From Candidatus Omnitrophota bacterium (lineage in GTDB: Bacteria; Omnitrophota; Gorgyraeia; Gygaellales; Profunditerraquicolaceae), in the NCBI GenBank assembly GCA_016867115.1, contig VGKG01000011.1, forward strand, positions 1-37,714: a stretch of 37,714 nucleotides of DNA, given 5' to 3'. The translations under genes and the position numbers were made by a program. Shown here one piece after another: positions 331 to 21,363 of this stretch. The notes beneath the pieces are model-generated. The model ran no database searches. It saw only the letters and a program-made list of their open reading frames with translations, and was not told the DNA's origin. How positions within the stretch are numbered: position 1 is the stretch's first letter; each line of letters begins with the position of its first letter.

Positions 331-1429
331 TTCTTCCCCTGAAAAAGAAAAATCTCAGGTCAGAGACGGAGCAGGCCATGGTATAGGCATCATGCCGCAT
401 CGCAGTGACCAGGTTGCAGCCGTGCGTACAGCTGCAGCAGGCTATTCTTTCCCGCATTTTATCGGCCTCTTCTGAACTCCAGACCCTGGCAAAGTCAAAG
501 TCCGCTTCGGCGAGACGGCCTATAGGCCTGGTGTTCTCGCAAAAAGCTACTTCGCCGTCCGGATAAACTACGGCATCGACCTTACCCGCATAACAAGGCA
601 GGACCCTTTTCTTCTCTCTGATCACCCTTAGCATATACTCAAATTTCTTCTGCTGAAAGACAGGCCAGAACTTAAATGAAGACGCTGCGTTTAGCAGCCT
701 GACTCTTTCATAAAAACTTTCCAGCTCCGGTAAATCCAAAGAAGTCTCAGCTGCGCAACCGTATAATCCGCTGGAGATTTCATGATCAAGGCCAAAGATA
801 CCGCTTTGCCGGTCCCTGAGCAGGGAAAACTTTATCGGGATCCTGAAATCCCGGAAATAACTTATGAAATCTTCTACCCCCCCTACCAGCGCTTTATTCA
901 CTACTGCGGCTATCTCAAGATAAAGGTTCCTGTGTCTTTCGCTTAAAGACTTAAGCGCAGCGGCGGTGGCTACGGCCCGGCTAAAGGCGCCCTCTACCTG
1001 CCGCAGCCGGTCGTGTTCCCTTTCCGGGGCATCGAGAGAGACCATTATCCTTAACTGCCGGGGCCTGACCTGGCGCAGTATCCTCTCCGTTTGCAGGAGT
1101 ATCTTATCGGTCAGGAAACCATTCGTGGGTATACTGATAAATCTGGTCCGGTTGTAAGAGGCAAATATCTCGCATATCTGCGGCAGGTCCTCTCTTAAAA
1201 AAGGCTCTCCGCCCGTCAATACCAGGCGCGGGATATTCTTTAAAGAAGCACTCAGGCGCGCGATCTGGCCGAGGCCCATCTCCTTTTCTCCCGTATTCAG
1301 GCGGCTTAAATAAAAACAAAAAAGGCAGCGCATCTGGCAGCGGTTAGTCACAAAGAAAACGAGTGCCTCGGGCAGCTCTGGTTTTTTTAGGAACGCCTTT
1401 TTATGACCGTCGATTTTTGCCTTTTGCAT
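290..1429 (-). CDS. Radical SAM/SPASM domain protein
   Basis: About 379 residues from the ATG at 1429. The frame stays open to a GTG at 1489, but that would overlap the upstream GT2 gene by 89 nt and adds a stretch that does not look conserved. The radical SAM cluster motif CQMRCLFC is at residues 31-38 (C31, C35, C38), followed by LTGGEPFLREDL, the GGE SAM-binding motif. The C-terminal part has the SPASM pattern: LPCYAG, then VYPDGEVAFCEN, then a CCSCTHGC cluster, which would bind auxiliary Fe-S clusters. SPASM proteins modify peptides or small molecules by radical chemistry, and the substrate cannot be read here. Placement after a glycosyltransferase and before a B12-type protein suggests a sugar, lipid or glycan-linked substrate (inference). 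Cytoplasmic. Confidence 0.85.
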   Translation of the reverse strand: MQKAKIDGHKKAFLKKPELPEALVFFVTNRCQMRCLFCFYLSRLNTGEKEMGLGQIARLSASLKNIPRLVLTGGEPFLREDLPQICEIFASYNRTRFISIPTNGFLTDKILLQTERILRQVRPRQLRIMVSLDAPEREHDRLRQVEGAFSRAVATAAALKSLSERHRNLYLEIAAVVNKALVGGVEDFISYFRDFRIPIKFSLLRDRQSGIFGLDHEISSGLYGCAAETSLDLPELESFYERVRLLNAASSFKFWPVFQQKKFEYMLRVIREKKRVLPCYAGKVDAVVYPDGEVAFCENTRPIGRLAEADFDFARVWSSEEADKMRERIACCSCTHGCNLVTAMRHDAYTMACSVSDLRFFFFRGRNAHKTKDDFAKKN

Positions 1430-2444
1430 AGACGTACTTCTTGTAATTCTCAATGCTTTCCCGGGAAAGGAAATCTTCTTTCCTTGCACGCAAGATAAGA
1501 GGAATTTCTTTCAGGTTTGCAAGATATGCCTTTAAAAAATAGTAGGGCGAGGACAGTAGCCATCTAAAGTGCGGCAGAGTGTGGTTCGGATTATTCCTGT
1601 TATCGGATATTTCGCCCTGCCTGCGGCGAGCCCTGCGGAATAAATACTCAAGCGGATAGAAGAAACAGAAAAAGAAGATGTCCAGCCACGGAAGAAAAAG
1701 AAGGTAATGGACCCCCTTATTTTTCAGGGCATATCTTACTCTTGCCTTCAGATACATAAAACGCCGGTCAGATCCGGGGCTCTGTGCATATTTATGCAGT
1801 CCGGCGGTCTTCAGGCAAAAAAAGTTTTTGAAACCCAGGCGCTTCACCTTCATCCCGAACTCTTTATCTTCTCCCATATAGACATAATAGGGGTCGAAAC
1901 CGCCGGCAGAAAAGGCGACCTCTTTCCTGACAAAACAGTTGCAGGTATCCACATAATCGCACTCCTTCAGGTCTTCGCTAAGGGGCTGGAGCGATTTCCT
2001 GCGCAAGGCCAAAGGAAAACTTCTTCCGTCAAAGGTCACGCCTTTACCGAAGGCGTTCACCGGTACTCCATTCTCATCCAATAATGCCACCCCGCCGATA
2101 AGGCCGGCGGAACTTCTCTCCTCCATAATCGCCACCATCCGGGAGATGGCATCCCCGAAGATCAGCTCACTGTCGCTATCCAAAAAAAGGACGTATTCTC
2201 CCCGGCTGTCCAATAAACCCTGATTTTTTGCGCAGGCCGGGCCCAGGCTCTTTTCATTACGGATAAAACGGACCCGCGGAAATCGCTCCTTAAAAGAGGC
2301 TATCGTGCCGTCGCTGGATCCGTCATCGATCACCACGACCTCTGTATCAGAATAGTCCTGCCGTAACACCGAGGCAAGGCATGCTGAAAGCATCTCCTTG
2401 CGATTATAGGAGGGGATTATCACTGACACTATATTTTTGCTCAT
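1401..2444 (-). CDS. Glycosyltransferase family 2
   Basis: 347 residues with a classic GT-A fold N-terminus: SVIIPSYNR at the start, VVVIDDGSSDGT (nucleotide binding, D40-D41), and LFLDSDSEL with the metal-binding DSD around residues 89-91. A later GEDKEFGMKVKRLG segment matches the acidic acceptor/catalytic region of the family. A hydrophobic stretch (LLFLPWLDIFFFCFFY) near residue 255 may anchor it at the cytoplasmic membrane face. The architecture resembles rhamnosyl- and other sugar transferases of O-antigen/exopolysaccharide loci. Donor and acceptor cannot be determined. Its ATG overlaps the TGA of the upstream radical SAM gene (ATGA), which implies translational coupling. Its 3' end runs into the start of the SPASM gene. 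Confidence 0.9.
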   Translation of the reverse strand: MSKNIVSVIIPSYNRKEMLSACLASVLRQDYSDTEVVVIDDGSSDGTIASFKERFPRVRFIRNEKSLGPACAKNQGLLDSRGEYVLFLDSDSELIFGDAISRMVAIMEERSSAGLIGGVALLDENGVPVNAFGKGVTFDGRSFPLALRRKSLQPLSEDLKECDYVDTCNCFVRKEVAFSAGGFDPYYVYMGEDKEFGMKVKRLGFKNFFCLKTAGLHKYAQSPGSDRRFMYLKARVRYALKNKGVHYLLFLPWLDIFFFCFFYPLEYLFRRARRRQGEISDNRNNPNHTLPHFRWLLSSPYYFLKAYLANLKEIPLILRARKEDFLSRESIENYKKYVYAKGKNRRS

Positions 2445-3961
2445 CCTGACCTTTGTTTTTTTGAAGCCGCTCTGTCCGGCAAGATCCTTCTTGAGGCAAA
2501 GTAGGCGTATCTTTTTATTGTCCTTTCTATATTCACATCAAACTTCGCGCGATTGAATAGCCTGCTGGCAATGTATAGCGCAATCGGAGGGAAAAAGGCG
2601 GGCAGATACCGGTGTGCCCGGCTTTCAAGGATCCATTTTCTCATCTTATAGGGCAGGAAATGAAAAAGATAAAAAAGCGCCATGAACCTTTTTGATTCCT
2701 TTGAGGGCTTACCCTTGCCTCTTACTATGCCGTAACCGGCCCTTCCTTCTTCGATATCCTGCATCTGGACCGGATTAAGCAGCCCCTGCTCCATGGCCCA
2801 GCAGGAGATCTGCGTCTTCGGGTAGTACCTTAGCCAGAAGATCTCGATGTGGTCGGGGAGATTGCGGCTGTAAAATTGCGCAGTCCTTTCCAGCTCAAGG
2901 CCGTCCTCTCCGGGAAGGCCGAGGATCGTATCGCAGGTGACATAAATGCCGGAGCCCTTAAGCAGCCCTATGGCCTTAGTGATTGCTTCATTTGAGGAGT
3001 TCCTTTTAAGGATACCCCTGCGCTTCTCTTCGTCGATGGTCTGGACCCCCATCTGCACTTTATAGCAGCCCGCCTCTTTTAATTGGCCGGCCAGTTCGGG
3101 CGTAACCAGGTCCGGAAAAGCAAAACAAAAAAAGGGCAGGCCGATCTCTCTTTTATACCGGGGCAGGAACTCGTCTAACCAGGCTTTGTCCGCATTGAAT
3201 ACTTCATCCCAGAAAGAGACGTATCGTGGTGCGTATTTTGCCTTTGCCTCCCCTAATTCCGCGATCACTGCTGCCGGGCTCCTCCTCCTTAAAAACTTTT
3301 TCTCTTCGGCATAAATCGCCTTCCAGGTATCGTTACAGCAATAACTGCAGCTATAGGGACAACCCCGGGAGGTAGACAAAATATAACCCTTATTGAATAC
3401 GGGGGCCGAAGTATAAAAGAGTTCTTTGTCGGCCGGCGGCAGGCGGTCGAGGTCGTCGATCGGAGGCCGGATGCGGTTTCTGACCACCGCGCCTTCTTTT
3501 TTAGTCCAGATGTTCATAATAGCATCTGTCGCCCCGGCCCCGGACAGAGCCGCGGCCAGTTCTACGATCGCCTCATCCCCCTCGCCTATGCAAAGGTAAT
3601 CAACGCAAGGCTCAAGGATGACCCTCTCCGGTACAGCACTGGGGTGGATGCCGCCGAAGACCACGGGGACAGAAAGATGTCTCTTGATTTCGGCCGCCCA
3701 GCCCTTTGCCCATTGATAATTATCCGTGATCACCGAAAAACAGACCATGTCCGGCTGATACTCAAGGATCCGGCGCAGCAGCTTTTTCCGGTAGGAGAAA
3801 ATGCCTGCCAGCACCCTGCTATTCAGGAAGGCGCTTTCGGCAAAAAGGACCGGGTCCAGGAAGAGCTTCGTCTCAAAACCGCACTTCTTAAGCAGGGCGC
3901 TTAAGTGCTCGATCCCTAAGTTTTCATACCCCGGATAAATAAAAGCGACTTTAAATTTCAT
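2441..3961 (-). CDS. B12-binding domain radical SAM protein (pair A)
   Basis: 506 residues. An N-terminal Rossmann-type B12-binding domain spans about residues 1-135 (SVITDNYQWAK, VFGGIHPSAVPE at 101-112, GEGDEAIVEL at 126-135). The radical SAM motif SRGCPYSCSYC follows, with C201, C205 and C208. There is no DxHxxG motif, as in many class B enzymes. A roughly 150-residue C-terminal region has basic and hydrophobic helices. Family members use cobalamin and SAM for methylations or ring rearrangements of poorly activated carbons (known for the family). The substrate here is unknown. It is paralogous to the protein at 24440-25918: both share GCPYxCxYC, RRRS, GLPFxCF and a later PETD/PKTQ-type loop. 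ATGA overlaps join it to the MBOAT-like gene upstream and the GT2 gene downstream. Confidence 0.9.
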   Translation of the reverse strand: MKFKVAFIYPGYENLGIEHLSALLKKCGFETKLFLDPVLFAESAFLNSRVLAGIFSYRKKLLRRILEYQPDMVCFSVITDNYQWAKGWAAEIKRHLSVPVVFGGIHPSAVPERVILEPCVDYLCIGEGDEAIVELAAALSGAGATDAIMNIWTKKEGAVVRNRIRPPIDDLDRLPPADKELFYTSAPVFNKGYILSTSRGCPYSCSYCCNDTWKAIYAEEKKFLRRRSPAAVIAELGEAKAKYAPRYVSFWDEVFNADKAWLDEFLPRYKREIGLPFFCFAFPDLVTPELAGQLKEAGCYKVQMGVQTIDEEKRRGILKRNSSNEAITKAIGLLKGSGIYVTCDTILGLPGEDGLELERTAQFYSRNLPDHIEIFWLRYYPKTQISCWAMEQGLLNPVQMQDIEEGRAGYGIVRGKGKPSKESKRFMALFYLFHFLPYKMRKWILESRAHRYLPAFFPPIALYIASRLFNRAKFDVNIERTIKRYAYFASRRILPDRAASKKQRSG

Positions 3962-5316
3962 CTGATATAGTAAAAGATAACCAGCATCGCCAGGACCTGA
4001 AAAAGCTTCACACAGACATTCCCCGAAAACCTTGAAAAAAGCGTCGGCCTTTCGCCTTCGGCGCTGACCTTCTGGTTATAAATCAATTGCAGCCCCAAAA
4101 GTATGCCCAGGATAAAGGATTTTTTCCCGATCTCAAAGATCCAGTAGCTAAAACCCCGAATGCCGACTGGATAAAGGGCCTGGAGGGCGAAGCCCGCGAA
4201 TACGCTTGCGGGCCCGCGGATGGAATTGTTCAGCATCGTACAAAACTCAAGACCGAAAGTGAGAAAAGAATAGGATGTCACTCCCAGGGTGACGGCGACC
4301 AAAACCGAAACAAAGCTGGCGAGACGGCTGTCAAGCCTCCTGAGAACGATGCTTGCCGGGACAAAGAAAACGCTGATAAGATAATCTTTAAAATAAGAAA
4401 GGGTCCGGTCAAAAAAGTCAAGGATATCGGCTGAAAGAAACGGCTTCCTGAAGGGAGAGCGGATGTCAAAACCCAAACCCCGCACCAGGCCCAGGAGTAT
4501 GTTCCCGTAACCCGTGATAGCCAGCAGATAAGAGACAAAGTGGGCCGGGATCTCTATTGCCGGTATGGACTTAAGAAGAGGATGGGTGAAATAAATACGC
4601 AGCAGTGCGGCTAAAATAAAGAGCTCGGATAGGCCGAGGGCGATCTTTCTCAGGCCCGAGCGCAGGAGATTGATAAAGTTATCCTGCGTACAGAATGAGT
4701 TCTTAAAATAATCGAACTTGGGAAGGACGATGATGTGAGGCAGGATAATAAAATATGCCGGACAGAAGATATACAAGATATAATCCCCGAACCTCTCTTT
4801 CTTCTGATAAACGAAGCTGTGGTATAAATACAGGATAAACCTGATGGAAAAAATGCCGGCAAAGATATAGGCGTACCAGAAGAATGCACTTTTGGCCGGA
4901 AAAAGGGCTTCCAGCGCAAGAAAAATAAACAATATGTAGAGGATAAAAATAAGGCTGGCCCTGAAAGATGCCGCCAATTTCGCATGGATGGCTAAATAGA
5001 AAAGGGCCGCGCCCAGATAGAGCAGGAATGATAATTTCCCGCAGATCAGAGTCGCAAATAAAAATGAGGCGCCGATAAGGATGGCCTTCCTCTCCTCCTT
5101 CCGGGGAAAGAAAAAGAGGGCCAGGAGCAGAACCAGATACAGCGAAAAGACGGCTATATATTTGGCTGTAGAAAACTGATTAAAATCCCATCCCGCAAGG
5201 GAGAAGGGCTCAAGGAACCCTTTCTCCTGAAGGCCTACAAAGATTATAAAGAGGCTCGAGAAAGCGGCGAGAATGCCGGAAAAACGGAAAAACTCCCTGT
5301 TCTTTAGGCTCTTCAT
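3958..5316 (-). CDS. MBOAT-like polytopic membrane protein lacking the usual histidine motifs
   Basis: 452 residues from the ATG at 5316, which makes an ATGA overlap with the ligase stop. An ATG at 5337 has no ribosome binding site. Numerous hydrophobic segments indicate an integral membrane protein. The C-terminal half follows the AlgI/DltB pattern: ILPHIIVLPKFDYF resembles the FP..aGPi.ry loop, SGLRKIALGLSELFI resembles the GLxKKxxIADxLA helix, and GYGNILLGLVRGLGF followed by SPFRKPFLSADILDFF matches GYSDIAIGLARLLGF..NFxxPYLSxSIxxFW. The RWHxSL segment is shortened to DRTLSYFKDY with no His. The region matching GLWHGAxWNFxLWG reads VTLGVTSYSFLTFGL (residues 342-356) with no His. MBOAT enzymes transfer acyl groups, and DltB moves D-alanine from its carrier across the membrane. 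Position directly after a carrier protein and its amino acid ligase suggests a DltB-like role (inference). The missing histidines make catalysis by the usual route doubtful. Confidence 0.7.
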   Translation of the reverse strand: MKSLKNREFFRFSGILAAFSSLFIIFVGLQEKGFLEPFSLAGWDFNQFSTAKYIAVFSLYLVLLLALFFFPRKEERKAILIGASFLFATLICGKLSFLLYLGAALFYLAIHAKLAASFRASLIFILYILFIFLALEALFPAKSAFFWYAYIFAGIFSIRFILYLYHSFVYQKKERFGDYILYIFCPAYFIILPHIIVLPKFDYFKNSFCTQDNFINLLRSGLRKIALGLSELFILAALLRIYFTHPLLKSIPAIEIPAHFVSYLLAITGYGNILLGLVRGLGFDIRSPFRKPFLSADILDFFDRTLSYFKDYLISVFFVPASIVLRRLDSRLASFVSVLVAVTLGVTSYSFLTFGLEFCTMLNNSIRGPASVFAGFALQALYPVGIRGFSYWIFEIGKKSFILGILLGLQLIYNQKVSAEGERPTLFSRFSGNVCVKLFQVLAMLVIFYYIR

Positions 5317-6263
5317 CTCCTGATTATCCCTGGCCATTTAGCGGGATTGAGGCCGTGCGTGTTCAATACTATCAAGGCCCACCTGGCGATCCCGAAGGCG
5401 ACGCATCCGCTATGGGCCCGCCCGTTATCCAGGCGCACGCCAAAACCCCGGCAAAAATGCGTGCCATGGCTGTTTAAAGAAGTAACGGGGATGAACCTTT
5501 TTAAGTCCGGGCAATAAGCCCTCAGTTCTATCTTCGTCTCAGTCAGCAGCTGAAAAAGGGATTTCCAGTCCCTGTTCTTGCCGTAAAAAACGTCGTAAGA
5601 AGGGACGAGCTCAAACTTAAGTCCGAGCTTCAGGGCAAGAGATTTCACCAGCCTGAATGATTCATCAAGCGCAGCTTTTACCTTATCTCTGCCGCCGATA
5701 AAAATCACCTCTCTCTGTTCAAACTCGTTCATCTTGAATAAAGTATTGAAAGAGGGCTCATTCCTGAAGACTTTATTTCTGACGGTTATCGCCAATAATT
5801 CCCCATTCTTCAGCCTGCGATGAGAAAGTTGCGCATAGCAGGGCAGGCACGCCGCCGGAAGCAGTACCCTTTCTGTCAAATAGCAGCTACTTTTGCCGGG
5901 CTGTTTCAGGGTGCCCCTGCCTGGCCGGGGCCCCAGGCAAGAAACGAGCTCCAGTGTATCCGGGAAGTTTTCAAGATAGCCTGCCTTTTCCAGGACCTGG
6001 CGTTCTACCGTCGAAGGATAGACCGTCTCCTGCGGGTTGAACCCGCAAAAGAGCTCTTTAAAAGCCCTATCGAGACCAGACATCAGGTCATTCACGACCC
6101 CTCTATACGCATACAGGCCCTTTCCGGTTTTTAAGATCAGGCCCTTTTCGATGGCTTCCTTCAGAGCCCCGCGGGAAAAAATGCCTTTACCCTTACTCTC
6201 ATAAAGGGGCTTCTGCGGGGAGTGGTCTGACGTATCCTTCTTTCTCCTGACAACGGCCCTCAT
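5313..6263 (-). CDS. Amino acid:[carrier protein] ligase, SerRS-like class II synthetase homologue
   Basis: 316 residues. It resembles the truncated seryl-tRNA-synthetase homologues, described from Bradyrhizobium and Agrobacterium, that lack a tRNA-binding domain. Those activate an amino acid with ATP and load it on the phosphopantetheine of a small carrier protein (established for the family). Visible motifs: YPSTVER near residue 82, a cysteine pair LPAACLPCY (C139, C142), class II motif 2 as VFRNEPS (R167, E169), NEFEQREVIFIG (E182/E185), then NSHGTHFCRGFGVR and motif 3 as SGCVAFGIARWAL (C287, R294). The Cys-Glu-Cys set fits the family's zinc site for the substrate amino group, with C139 or C142, E182 or E185, and C287 as candidates. 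The length fits a catalytic core without the tRNA-binding arm. ATGA overlaps join it to the carrier-protein gene upstream and the MBOAT-like gene downstream. The amino acid used cannot be read; family members favour small ones such as glycine or alanine. Confidence 0.85.
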   Translation of the reverse strand: MRAVVRRKKDTSDHSPQKPLYESKGKGIFSRGALKEAIEKGLILKTGKGLYAYRGVVNDLMSGLDRAFKELFCGFNPQETVYPSTVERQVLEKAGYLENFPDTLELVSCLGPRPGRGTLKQPGKSSCYLTERVLLPAACLPCYAQLSHRRLKNGELLAITVRNKVFRNEPSFNTLFKMNEFEQREVIFIGGRDKVKAALDESFRLVKSLALKLGLKFELVPSYDVFYGKNRDWKSLFQLLTETKIELRAYCPDLKRFIPVTSLNSHGTHFCRGFGVRLDNGRAHSGCVAFGIARWALIVLNTHGLNPAKWPGIIRR

Positions 6264-6532
6264 CTTTTAGCCCCTCCTCTCCTGAGCATCTTTCTGGCTA
6301 TAAAATCCGAAAGCGTGCTGACATCGGAAAAGTCTTCGATATGTATATCCAGCGGTTTCAGGGTGATCTTGAACTCAGACTCGATGAAAATGATCAGTTG
6401 CACAAAGTTCAGCGAATCGATTATCTCTTCATCTATAAGGCGTATGCTATCGGAAACCTTGCGTTTCCCGGATAACCCGGCAAGGAAACTCTTCAGCTTC
6501 TCTTTAATTAAATCGGGCTCTGCCGTATTCAT
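6260..6532 (-). CDS. Acyl/aminoacyl carrier protein
   Basis: 90 residues with the size and four-helix pattern of an ACP. The phosphopantetheine site is IIDSLNFVQL, with Ser40 in a canonical DSL motif. It is followed by a helix (IIFIESEFKITL) and a final ...VSTLSDFIARKML helix. A phosphopantetheinyl transferase would have to modify it, and none is seen in the window. It sits directly before the amino acid:carrier-protein ligase with an ATGA overlap, so it is very likely that ligase's partner (family knowledge plus context). In that role it would carry an aminoacyl thioester, as DltC does. It differs from the second carrier protein at 19977-20291. Confidence 0.9.
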   Translation of the reverse strand: MNTAEPDLIKEKLKSFLAGLSGKRKVSDSIRLIDEEIIDSLNFVQLIIFIESEFKITLKPLDIHIEDFSDVSTLSDFIARKMLRRGGAKR

Positions 6533-8082
6533 TCTTTAATCTTTTCTGCCGCAAGCACCAGGACTTCGTTATCCCCGACCCTCAGCTTAAAATCAGCTTT
6601 CTCTCCGGCAAGGTCAAAAAGCAGGCGGCCTGCTCCGGGGGCATCAGCAAACTCTTTTCCGTAATAACGGCTCTCTAATAAAAAGTAATCGATTTTATGT
6701 CTTGCGATAAAATCTGTGACCTTCTTTTTTGAATCCGCATAAAGAGCGGATATCAACTCCTGTCTCCTTGCCGCAAGCTCTCTTTCGGGATAGAAAAAAA
6801 TAAGCGGCTCCCTGGTCTCATCCATAAAGAAGAGCTGTCTCTTGGCAAAGAGGGGAACTGATTGCGTAAATACCCCCGCGGGAAAACCTGCGATCATAAC
6901 CCCCTCAGGAAGCCTCTCGATATAATCGTAAGCGGGCTTATACCCCCTTTGGTCAAGGAGTGCATTATAACGGGGGTTAAAAAATAAGAGTAAAAGCATA
7001 AAAGGAAAGAGCAGAAGCTCCAGCCGCGCACTCCTACCCAGGGTATCCGACAAATTGAAAGAGACGAGAAAAACAAGGAGCAGCGGTAAAGTAAAAATGA
7101 GCTGCCGGGAGGCGGAAACCGGCTGCAAAGGATAAATCGATATAAAACCGGCGGCTGAGGCAGCCAGTATCAGCCATATCTGCCAGGGCAGCCTCAGGGC
7201 CGCTCTTCTTTTAAAGATTAAAAATAAGGCAGAGAGGATAATGAAGATGGCGCACATGTATTTATACTGGGGCGTATATTCGTTCAGATTCAGGATGAAG
7301 TATAAAATAATATCCGACGGGCTGCGGGGATCAAGGGGCCCGGGTACTGCCTGGGTGAATTTATATTGGCTGAAAGCCAGGGATCCCCCGACGATTCTCT
7401 TTATCGGCAAGGCAAAAAGCGAAAAGTTATACATGAAAAGAATAAGCGCAAGGCTCATCCCAAGAATATACAGATATTTTCTTAAGGCGAGCAATTTCTT
7501 CTTTAGGTATACTGCCAATAAGATACAGCTATAGACAAGGGTGAGGGCAAGCGGAGGATAGATAATAAATGCGCATACGCAAAAGAGGGGCAGGATCGCA
7601 TATCTTGCCTTTGTCAGAAAATAGAGGAAGGCGCAGAACAAAAGCGCGCCAAAGGCCCTGAGTTGGCCGCCGACAAAAATATCCGTGGAGAGGAAAAAGA
7701 CGAGAAAAAGCCCCGCCAATAAAATGGCGCGGGGCCTTGAATCATAAAGATTCATTCCTGTCTTATAAATCAGTGCCGTCGCCAAGGTACAAAGCATTAT
7801 CGAGACTATCTTTATGGCCACAGCCAGAGGCAATACGGAAAGCAGGGCCAGATAGACCGCCCAGGCTAAATAGATCCCTTTTGATAGGCCTAAACCATGC
7901 CTTACATTATCGGTCAACAAGTCATCTTTAAAGAGGCCCGGGTCAGAAATGCCCTTTAAAAAATAAAAACCCGCGGAATCGGGCTTATAGGAATATTGGA
8001 TATCCAGGCGGCGGGAATTATTCAAAGTATTAACGTAGGCCGCCAGTAAAATAACGATGAGAAGATAATGAATCGGTTTCAT
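6529..8082 (-). CDS. GT-C-like polytopic membrane protein (putative glycosyltransferase)
   Basis: 517 residues. An N-terminal membrane helix is followed by an extracytoplasmic loop rich in acidic residues (RRLDIQYSYKPDSAGFY, then DPGLFKDDLLTDNVR), many hydrophobic segments, and a soluble C-terminal region of about 140 residues (from about RYNALLDQRGYKPAYDYI, with FPAGVFTQS and DYFLLESRYY). This layout, acidic first loop, polytopic core and C-terminal domain, is typical of GT-C enzymes that use polyprenyl-phosphate sugars. I see no exact GT39 signature, so the activity is inferred. It overlaps its upstream neighbour (8079) and the carrier-protein gene (6532) by ATGA. The two adjacent GT-C-like proteins share general architecture but not obvious sequence. 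Confidence 0.65.
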   Translation of the reverse strand: MKPIHYLLIVILLAAYVNTLNNSRRLDIQYSYKPDSAGFYFLKGISDPGLFKDDLLTDNVRHGLGLSKGIYLAWAVYLALLSVLPLAVAIKIVSIMLCTLATALIYKTGMNLYDSRPRAILLAGLFLVFFLSTDIFVGGQLRAFGALLFCAFLYFLTKARYAILPLFCVCAFIIYPPLALTLVYSCILLAVYLKKKLLALRKYLYILGMSLALILFMYNFSLFALPIKRIVGGSLAFSQYKFTQAVPGPLDPRSPSDIILYFILNLNEYTPQYKYMCAIFIILSALFLIFKRRAALRLPWQIWLILAASAAGFISIYPLQPVSASRQLIFTLPLLLVFLVSFNLSDTLGRSARLELLLFPFMLLLLFFNPRYNALLDQRGYKPAYDYIERLPEGVMIAGFPAGVFTQSVPLFAKRQLFFMDETREPLIFFYPERELAARRQELISALYADSKKKVTDFIARHKIDYFLLESRYYGKEFADAPGAGRLLFDLAGEKADFKLRVGDNEVLVLAAEKIKE

Positions 8083-12658: not shown

Positions 12659-13846
12659 TTAGACCACATCGTTATCTCCGAACGTAATAAACCAGTCCCT
12701 AAACCGCAGGACATCTTCTTCCGGTATCTCCGGAGAGTGGTTGCGTAAAACAAAATTATAAGGTTGGGGCCTGAACCTTTCCGGACAGATAAAAAAACCG
12801 TTTTTGAGCAAAACCCCTGAGTAGGCCCTGTCGGGCGAGACGAGAAAGCCGGCGATATCCGCGCCATTTTTCCTGAAGTGCGCCAAGGCTCCTTTTATAA
12901 GCAGGGATAGCGCAAGCCTCCCGGCGCAGCTCTTTTCCGCCAGCAGATCCACGATATAACCCGCTTTAAGCGTATCGAAAGATGCGATCCTTAATACCGT
13001 ATAGCCGACGATCTTTTTCCCGCTATCTTCCGCCGCCAAAATAACGTAGCTGCGCCGGGGGTTTTTTATGTAGCGCCAATTCAGGTAGGCGCTGTCGCGT
13101 ACGATGATATTTTTGTGGCATGATTGCGCCCTCTGCCATAAATCGTCAAATCTGCGGTCAAACTCTCTGACTATGCGTACGTTAATCCTCCCCGAGTCAC
13201 CCTTGCCTGAGTTATTGAACTTGTGCAGAAAGAAATCGTAAACCCCCAGAAAGGATAGTGCCGGAAGACCCAAGAAGAACATAAAAAGATTGTCTTTTGC
13301 GCATCTCCTCAATAAGTTCTTTGCGCTTAAAGGTTTGATCCAGAGGCCGGGGCTGCCTATATATCTGTAGCCTAATTGCGCCAGAGATTCTTTTGAGATG
13401 ACGGAATTCGGGAATCCGTAGGTCAAGACGATATTTTTCTGCCTGCATGCCGCAAACGCCTTTCCTGCCAGGTACGGATAAATACCCTTCTCCCTGAAAT
13501 CCCGGTGCGTGAGCACTTTGATAGCCAGGCTTCCCTCGCGCACCATTGCCCCAAGCTTCATCCTTACGGGATTGATCACGTATTGACCGACGATCCTGCG
13601 ATTGTGCCGGGCTACCCATATAATCGCTCTTCCCGCAGGGTTATCCGAATACTCCCAACGCAGATACTCGGGATAAGCCTCATCTACTTCGCCGTAATGC
13701 ATGCGCACCAGATCAAGCAGGCCCCGGATGCCCTCCTCATCGGTAAGGTCAAAAGGTTCTGCCTCCCAATCGTAGGCCTTCCTGATCTTCTCCCAGAAAG
13801 CCGGGTCTTCTAAAGAATAATCGGGGCGTGCTTGCGGATTTGGCAT
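12659..13846 (-). CDS. GNAT-family N-acyltransferase
   Basis: 395 residues, long for a GNAT, probably with two acyltransferase-like halves. The first half has WVARHNRRIVGQYVINPVRM and SLAIKVLTHRDFREKGIYPYLAGKAF, which matches GNAT motif A with acetyl-CoA contact R-E-K-G-I-Y-P. The second has IVGYTVLRI, AGYIVDLLAEKSC and LALSLLIKGALAHF, again GNAT-like, with GVLLKNGFF near the end. Two-half architectures occur in FemX/GNAT-type enzymes that acylate sugars or peptides. The donor could be an acyl-CoA or a loaded carrier protein from this locus (speculative). It sits 3 nt from the SPASM gene upstream and 15 nt from the B12 radical SAM gene downstream. Confidence 0.75.
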   Translation of the reverse strand: MPNPQARPDYSLEDPAFWEKIRKAYDWEAEPFDLTDEEGIRGLLDLVRMHYGEVDEAYPEYLRWEYSDNPAGRAIIWVARHNRRIVGQYVINPVRMKLGAMVREGSLAIKVLTHRDFREKGIYPYLAGKAFAACRQKNIVLTYGFPNSVISKESLAQLGYRYIGSPGLWIKPLSAKNLLRRCAKDNLFMFFLGLPALSFLGVYDFFLHKFNNSGKGDSGRINVRIVREFDRRFDDLWQRAQSCHKNIIVRDSAYLNWRYIKNPRRSYVILAAEDSGKKIVGYTVLRIASFDTLKAGYIVDLLAEKSCAGRLALSLLIKGALAHFRKNGADIAGFLVSPDRAYSGVLLKNGFFICPERFRPQPYNFVLRNHSPEIPEEDVLRFRDWFITFGDNDVV

Positions 13847-20304: not shown

Positions 20305-21363
20305 ATGCCTAATTTCGCCTTCCATAACGTCGGCATCTCCGGAGTCTCGGCGGCAGTTCCGAAAAAGCGCATAAAGAATGCCTCCCTTTCGCGGATCTTT
20401 AAAAAGGCTGCGGTCGAAAAAATAATCTCTGTCACCGGCATAGAAGAAAGGCGGTCTGCCGGAAAGAATACCTGCTCCTCCGACCTCTGCTTTGCGGCAG
20501 CCGAAAGATTGATCCTTGAGGCGGGGATAGAAAAAGATGCTATCGACGTCCTTATTTTCGTCAGCCAAACTCCGGATTACCGCCAGCCGTCAACTGCGGC
20601 GATACTGCAGGATCGCCTGGGTTTAAAAAAGGGCACGGCAAGTCTTGATATGAACCTTGCCTGCTCAGGTTACGTATACGGCCTGTCTGCGGCATTCTCC
20701 TACGCCAGCAATCTAAAGGAAAACGCGAAGGTCCTGTTGCTGGCAGGCGAGACATTTTCAAAGATCGTCTCGTCTAAAGACAAGGCGACCGCTCTATTAT
20801 TCGGCGATGCGGGCTCAGCCACCCTGGTAGAAAGAGGGGATTTCGGGAAATCTTACTTCTCGCTCAATTCGGACGGGAGCGGAGAAAACATCATCAAGAT
20901 CGATTCCGGAGGCTACAGGCGGATGAGCCGGCACAGGAGCCTGATGCCGCGAAAACGCCCTAACGGCAGCGTGCGCTCTGACGAACAGCTGTTTATGGAC
21001 GGGGCAGAGGTCTTTAACTTTACGCTGCGCGAGATCCCCCGGGACATTCTTTCTCTCCTGCGCTACGCAAATGTGCCTGGAGGAAAAATAGATTATTTTA
21101 TCCTGCACCAGGCAAATAAATTGATACTTGAGTTGCTGGCAAAAAAAATAGGCTGCCCTGCGGCGAAACTTCCCCTCTCGCTTAAGAAGTTCGGGAATAC
21201 GGGTTCAGCTTCCATACCATTGACCCTCGTTTCGGAACTGAAAGACACACTCGGCCGCAAAAAAAAGAAAGTGCTCCTCTCCGGTTTCGGCGGGGGCTTA
21301 TCGTGGGCCTCTTGCGTAACAGACATCGGAAGATGCCCTGTTTGCTGCGTCATCGAGGTATAA
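20305..21363 (+). CDS. 3-oxoacyl-ACP synthase III (KAS III) family protein
   Basis: 352 residues. The catalytic triad is complete: Cys120 in NLACSGYVYGL, His268 in FILHQANKLI and Asn298 in KFGNTGSASIPL. FVSQTPDYRQPSTAA, LLFGDAGSATLV and LSGFGGGLSWAS are typical of FabH-like enzymes. Such enzymes start chain building by condensing acyl-CoA with malonyl-ACP, or transfer acyl groups as specialised starters or esters (family knowledge). Here it follows a dedicated carrier protein rather than fatty acid genes, so a role in making a specialised acyl group for the glycolipid is an inference. The C-terminal extension beyond WAS (CVTDIGRCPVCC) has four cysteines, which is unusual and may be non-functional. 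The next gene starts 3 nt later. Confidence 0.9.
   Translation: MPNFAFHNVGISGVSAAVPKKRIKNASLSRIFKKAAVEKIISVTGIEERRSAGKNTCSSDLCFAAAERLILEAGIEKDAIDVLIFVSQTPDYRQPSTAAILQDRLGLKKGTASLDMNLACSGYVYGLSAAFSYASNLKENAKVLLLAGETFSKIVSSKDKATALLFGDAGSATLVERGDFGKSYFSLNSDGSGENIIKIDSGGYRRMSRHRSLMPRKRPNGSVRSDEQLFMDGAEVFNFTLREIPRDILSLLRYANVPGGKIDYFILHQANKLILELLAKKIGCPAAKLPLSLKKFGNTGSASIPLTLVSELKDTLGRKKKKVLLSGFGGGLSWASCVTDIGRCPVCCVIEV

Follow-up and report, generated by a model that had tools for sequence, protein, structure and literature searches.

A candidate Dlt-like module with a SerRS-like loading enzyme in an Omnitrophota operon

The Dlt system (DltA-DltC-DltB-DltX-DltD), which carries out the D-alanylation of teichoic acids, is one of the described systems that come closest to the genes considered here. 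Passages of the literature give His289 and His336 as the active residues of DltB (PMC11035591), describe a DltX/FXYXXF acyl shuttle, and report that a histidine is required in Campylobacter jejuni PatA, with the same cited for DltB (PMC12148441). Another is formed by the seryl-tRNA synthetase (SerRS)-like amino acid:carrier-protein ligases, which load amino acids onto carrier proteins and are summarized as a family in a part of PMC9437257. In 2010, Aravind and colleagues linked the genes for such ligases to genes for carriers, redox enzymes, and glycosidases and to liposaccharide genes, and the note added in proof of their paper (section 17) predicted an StRS-ACP (acyl carrier protein) aminoacylation in which Atu2574 transfers the amino acid to a surface sugar (PMC2922099). 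In this study, we analyzed a 37,714-nucleotide stretch of DNA (hereafter the window) from a Candidatus Omnitrophota bacterium, in which three consecutive genes encode a carrier protein, a SerRS-like amino acid:carrier-protein ligase, and a divergent membrane protein related to the MBOAT family, to which DltB belongs. The window is one complete contig (VGKG01000011.1) of a genome of 1.47 Mb in 52 contigs. We give a probability of about 50% to the reading that this trio is a Dlt-like module in which the loading enzyme has been exchanged.

The three genes and their protein families

A sequence-only reading of this DNA had placed the three consecutive genes at 3958-6532 and had assigned a DSL motif with S40 to the carrier; the open reading frames (ORFs) bear out both the coordinates and the carrier. 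All three genes lie on the minus strand. The carrier P0003 (6260..6532, 90 amino acids) has its DSL motif at residues 39-41, with the phosphopantetheine site at S40. It is followed by the ligase P0002 (5313..6263, 316 amino acids) and by the membrane protein P0001 (3958..5337, 459 amino acids, or 452 amino acids if translation starts at Met8, position 5316). The same reading had described both junctions as ATGA overlaps. This holds for the carrier and ligase genes (6260-6263), and for the ligase and P0001 genes it requires the Met8 start, since the longest ORF gives an overlap of 25 bases. Because the flanking genes are likewise joined by four-base overlaps (8079-8082, 6529-6532, 3958-3961, and 2441-2444), the ATGA overlaps do not distinguish the trio from a longer operon.

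The assignment of P0002 to the amino acid:[carrier protein] ligase family is secure on sequence grounds, as had been proposed. Its top NCBIfam match was NF005479, 'amino acid--[acyl-carrier-protein] ligase', with an E-value of 1.1e-39 and a score of 136 bits that falls short of the 357-bit equivalog cut-off, ahead of the serine--tRNA ligase model (5.2e-25), and its best match among solved structures was Bll0957 (5.3e-26, residues 81-315). C139, E185, and C287 of P0002 stand at the zinc-ligand positions, which in Bll0957 we take to be C131/E176/C279; these residues are identical in 7/7 aligned ligases, in which R167 of motif 2 and R294 of motif 3 are also retained. P0002 corresponds to the catalytic core: its matches to SerRS models start at model position 186 at the earliest, so the N-terminal tRNA-binding part is absent. 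Such a ligase is rare here: one genome had it among 97 sampled from the family, one among 128 from the order, and four among 384 from the phylum (our family, order, class, and phylum samples overlap).

P0003 matched Pfam PP-binding at 0.0041, short of the cut-off. Its NCBIfam matches were AsbD (3.6e-8), the OlsHI carrier (4.3e-7), and AmcB (1.3e-6), none of which reached the curated cut-offs, and the AsbD and OlsHI carriers ranked above DltC (1.1e-5, 25.4 bits; cut-off 68). The PRK07081 carrier, whose model number comes right after that of the ligase model and which may be the usual partner of this ligase family, matched with an E-value of 0.044. The genome contains one match to PF01648, in a 122-residue frame of the size of AcpS.

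Judged by its sequence relationships, P0001 is most likely a remote homologue of the MBOATs. As the Pfam MBOAT model PF03062 found nothing, even in a search of the whole genome, this call rests on a weak match to NCBIfam DltB (1.8e-5, 24.2 bits; cut-off 375) and on profile-profile comparison. In hhalign, a profile of P0001 and its single relative, found in genome G314, aligned with four DltB-like MBOATs at a probability of 94.6% (7.1e-8) over residues 63-351; three of the four are located beside carriers of the P0003 type and the fourth, L080, beside another carrier type. The P0001 profile reached 88.7% against 28 Omnitrophota MBOATs and 86.1% against 31, whereas a reversed profile gave 0.6%. 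The set of 28, some of which are fragments, was drawn from 30 loci without L029 and L044, which fall outside the motif pattern. A hidden Markov model of these 28 proteins found P0001 at 2.7e-6, whereas the best-scoring unrelated ORF stood at 0.58. When 107 hydrophobic ORFs were compared singly with the profile, the eight MBOATs came out on top, with probabilities from 82% down to 6.3%, and none of the 99 non-MBOAT controls exceeded 1.1%. A P0001+P0004 profile gave two irrelevant matches (E-values of 1.7 and 2.0) and no DltB among sequences of solved structures, and a tblastn search with P0001 found no match in 72,556 plasmid records.

Carrier-MBOAT neighborhoods with other loading enzymes

The sole full-length relative of P0001 (31% identity, E-value of 7.1e-48) occurs in G314, a genome of the same class; no further relatives were found in 37 genomes of the family of G314 or in 384 genomes of the class (2/384 in the class). 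A scan of genome contigs with two short peptide patterns, which catches close relatives only, returned the G314 contig alone. Downstream of the P0001 relative, this contig carries three genes in the same orientation, which encode an isocitrate-lyase-like protein, an ANL (adenylation-type) ligase, and a carrier 39% identical to P0003. Thus, G314 combines this type of membrane protein and carrier with another loader. The first of the three downstream proteins, whose gene separates the MBOAT-like gene from that of the ANL ligase (L015:10534-11364), belongs to the isocitrate-lyase/phosphoenolpyruvate-mutase family and may supply the loaded acid.

Carriers of the P0003 type (E-value <= 1e-7) were found in 24 of the 384 phylum genomes, including those of the window and G314. 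From the other 22 genomes we took 23 stretches, 321 kb in total and some cut by contig ends, and searched them in six frames, which recovered the ANL gene of L083 missed by gene calling. An ANL ligase was present in 16/23 (with one query, P0005 of G314, so that distant members may be missed) and a canonical MBOAT in 8/23, counting as present the L084 copy, which is broken by a run of unknown bases and was excluded from the histidine count given below; seven stretches had both and six had neither. As a yardstick, 44 MBOAT matches in 117 genomes correspond to an expectation of approximately 0.1 MBOAT per 321 kb, an estimate made with rounded genome sizes. Neither the SerRS-like ligase nor FkbH was found in any of these stretches (0/23 for both). 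Because the relatives of P0001 and of the carrier sit near ANL ligases, in G314 and in most of the carrier stretches, and because MBOATs recur in this set, the trio of the window resembles a module of this kind in which another ligase has been substituted; this supports the earlier proposal that a class II synthetase core takes the place of the adenylation domain.

With P0003 alone as the query, the nearest carrier was that of G314 (49.0 bits), followed by those of L081 (42.4 bits) and L082 (38.9 bits), which adjoin DltB-type MBOATs at distances of 20 and 69 bases. The remaining MBOAT-linked carriers scored 32.2 to 22.6 bits, and the seven carriers accompanying SerRS-like ligases scored 25.9, 19.7, 19.4, 8.0, 6.6, 5.3, and 3.5 bits; the 23 compared carriers were picked by their likeness to P0003 and are hence favored over the ligase-linked ones. 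What bears weight in this sequence comparison is that L081 and L082 rank so high. The ranking points to the recruitment of a SerRS-like ligase into a pre-existing carrier-MBOAT module.

The loading enzymes of these neighborhoods are not uniform. Five ANL proteins from MBOAT-containing stretches were tested, and two, those of L081 and L092, passed the cut-off of 317.4 bits for amino-acid adenylation, with scores of 378.8 and 362.1 bits, and matched DltA at 2e-91 and 1e-81, respectively. The other three had an exosortase-associated acyl-CoA ligase model as their best match; therefore, some carrier-MBOAT modules do not carry amino acids. L081:7105-13967 and L092:4428-9748 each combine an MBOAT, a carrier, an acyl-CoA dehydrogenase, and an amino-acid adenylation domain, and these modules may oxidize a carrier-bound amino acid before its transfer to a glycan. 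The conversion of prolyl to pyrrolyl is an oxidation of this type. In genome G198, a protein with an FkbH domain (292 bits; cut-off 146.65), a carrier recognized by look, and a DltB-like MBOAT are encoded consecutively (L080:7241-10602). The L080 carrier scored only 7.8 bits against P0003; with its third type of loader, this locus resembles a related module that would load glyceryl groups.

Proposed mechanism and alternative explanations

If the trio is a Dlt-like module, an AcpS-type enzyme of the genome would prime S40 of the carrier with phosphopantetheine, and the SerRS-like ligase, by homology, would use ATP to activate a small amino acid, which it would attach to the carrier as a thioester. 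The charged carrier would then dock on P0001, in the place of DltB, and with the help of P0001 the aminoacyl group would reach a surface glycan or lipid that the operon's own glycosyltransferases produce. From the family of P0002, it is likely that P0003 is charged with an amino acid, and we infer that delivery to an envelope glycan proceeds via P0001. Glycosyltransferase, deacetylase, and methyltransferase genes around the trio support this reading. Transfer is the weakest step because P0001 is without the usual MBOAT histidines. For the same reason, transfer by the classical mechanism is doubtful, and this step would need other catalytic residues in P0001 or the participation of another protein. 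We offer only tentatively the wider proposal that a class II synthetase relative charges the carrier, that a histidine-less MBOAT hands the amino acid to a surface glycan, and that loaders of the ANL, FkbH, and SerRS-like types are exchangeable before the carrier-MBOAT pair in Omnitrophota.

Several observations weigh against a Dlt-like function of the trio. The histidines of the RWH and WH motifs are absent from the alignment of P0001, and WH occurs nowhere in the protein; RWH/SWH and WH are both present in 8/8 complete MBOATs from the carrier stretches and L080. The C-terminal FxYxxF acyl-shuttle motif is also absent, P0001 ending in FYYIR. The suggestion of an MBOAT-like protein stands as far as homology is concerned, and both active-site histidines and the shuttle motif that would go with it are missing. 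The window has no DltX-like ORF, as no frame of at least 20 codons on either strand ends in F.Y..[FYWLI], and no SGNH/DltD-type gene was recognized among the part of its ORFs that was scanned with Pfam. A term search of the MBOAT review PMC10213974 returned no passage on members without the histidine.

Other points concern the strength of the comparisons. P0001 matched no Pfam model, and when the MBOAT model was run on a larger six-frame set it failed to reach 1e-5; its G314 relative by itself gave no MBOAT or DltB match, and an AlphaFold2 model of P0001 with this single relative had a mean pLDDT (predicted local distance difference test) of 38.7, too poor for a fold search. The carriers are short, and the scores of those ranked nearest to P0003 are low (49 to 39 bits). 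The best match of the G314 ANL ligase was an acyl-CoA ligase; its amino-acid adenylation score was 154 bits, under the cut-off of 317, so the enzyme is not clearly specific for amino acids.

The distribution of the genes weighs in the same direction. The exact trio occurs in one genome only, with four ligase genomes among the 384 of the phylum and two P0001 genomes among the 384 of the class. The sequence-only reading had set the conserved adjacency of the three genes in relatives as a test, and none of the other genomes searched had this exact trio; what recurs instead is a carrier, a loader, and an MBOAT-type protein, with the loader varying. Moreover, the 20-kb stretches around the three further Omnitrophota ligases (L012-L014) contain no MBOAT; a carrier is adjacent in two of these three. 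The SerRS-like ligase of L014:9624-16312, in genome G230, has no detected carrier and lies near genes that by look are SPASM-like radical SAM and asparagine-synthetase-like.

The scarcity of MBOATs beside SerRS-like ligases speaks for a different explanation, in which the aminoacyl thioester formed by ligase and carrier serves some other enzyme of the cluster, for instance a GNAT protein or one of the radical SAM enzymes, as is the case for SerRS-like ligases elsewhere. P0001 would then belong to the operon without being related to the other two in function. Besides the three Omnitrophota ligases, five annotated plasmid neighborhoods of the ligase (6 of 92 matching records were inspected, one of them unannotated) contained a carrier in 5/5 cases, an acyl-CoA dehydrogenase in 4/5, and an annotated MBOAT in 0/5. 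The four-base overlaps that run throughout the operon are in line with this explanation, as is the gene for a protein with two GNAT domains in the cluster of the trio (12659-13846), a possible alternative acceptor enzyme for the aminoacyl-carrier. However, the P0001 family is located near a matching carrier in G314 too, and P0003 is nearest to precisely that carrier and to two carriers adjacent to MBOATs. We consider this explanation rather unlikely.

It is less probable still that P0001 is a catalytically dead MBOAT, serving only as a carrier dock or channel while a second acyltransferase does the chemistry. The loss of both histidine positions argues for such a role, given that C. jejuni PatA and, according to work cited there, DltB depend on the histidine (PMC12148441), and in a two-sequence alignment Tyr356 of P0001 stands opposite a histidine at the second active-site position of the G314 relative. 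However, this family has two members, the alignment around the second histidine is gappy and shifts between the two-sequence and the longer alignment, and no partner acyltransferase was identified. That the three genes are chance neighbors with no shared pathway is very improbable: the trio was found in no second genome searched, but ligase and carrier are paired by the known biochemistry of the family (PMC9437257, in part), and carrier and membrane protein occur together again in G314. An ordinary Dlt operon was also considered and was rejected, as the six frames of the window held no match to the G314 ANL ligase at 1e-8.

If the trio is indeed a Dlt-like module with an exchanged loading enzyme, P0001 would be a candidate downstream membrane step for the SerRS-like amino acid:carrier-protein ligases, whose acceptor is, to our knowledge, still unsettled. 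Two unrelated routes of amino-acid loading would be interchangeable before the same kind of membrane protein, and the locus would provide a test case for the function of an MBOAT without its histidine.

Surroundings of the trio and comparison with known systems

The longer operon comprises, besides the trio, two polytopic membrane proteins recognized by look, a B12-binding radical SAM protein, and a family 2 glycosyltransferase. The polytopic membrane protein at 6529..8082 (minus strand), whose gene overlaps the carrier gene by four bases, had no Pfam or NCBIfam match at E-values up to 1 and, by look only, is possibly a GT-C-type glycosyltransferase. On the other side, the radical SAM protein (2441..3961, minus strand; Radical_SAM 8.1e-20, B12-binding 6.5e-18) overlaps the P0001 gene by four bases, and the glycosyltransferase lies at 1401..2444 on the minus strand (Glycos_transf_2, 1e-29). 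The G+C contents of the ligase, carrier, and membrane protein genes were 51.5%, 44.0%, and 47.2%, respectively, and that of the contig was 50.1%; base composition gives no clear sign of a foreign origin. Numerous radical SAM genes, three confirmed by Pfam and the others recognized by look, are spread over 290-31250 of the 37-kb contig, and a β-ketoacyl-ACP synthase III, slightly above the PRK09352 cut-off, is encoded at 20305-21363 within a cluster of glycosyltransferase and radical SAM genes.

The sequence-only reading had regarded the arrangement as not described as a system. The combination of the ligase with an MBOAT, DltB, or carrier was indeed described in none of the titles or abstract beginnings among the matches listed, which were mainly non-subscription papers. 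The broad idea is not wholly undescribed, because the 2010 prediction already held that a SerRS-like ligase and a carrier bring an amino acid to a cell-surface sugar, as the trio may do (PMC2922099). In the passages that set out that prediction, unlike in the window, the uncharacterized protein Atu2574 forms an amide, and an MBOAT goes unmentioned (PMC2922099).

P0002 is of the same family as the Bll0957/Atu2573-type ligases and retains their zinc-ligand positions and the arginines of motifs 2 and 3. Yet its 136 bits lie below the equivalog cut-off of the family model (357 bits), and its carrier scores to the AsbD, OlsHI, and DltC carriers rather than to PRK07081. Atu2573 itself is presumably a ligase of the Bll0957 type. 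Whereas the plasmid loci of this type have an acyl-CoA dehydrogenase in most neighborhoods, the trio has an MBOAT-like partner. Like the Dlt system, the trio has a ligase, a stand-alone carrier, and an MBOAT-related membrane protein; it differs in that the ligase is class II synthetase-like and not ANL, P0001 lacks the active-site histidines, a DltX-like ORF is absent from the window, and DltD was not recognized among the scanned ORFs. The seven stretches of genomes G326, G211, G126, G396, G145, G114, and G123 differ from the trio in their adenylation-type ligases and in MBOATs with intact RWH/SWH...WH motifs where complete (the G396 copy is interrupted), and they share with it a related carrier and an MBOAT in one neighborhood.

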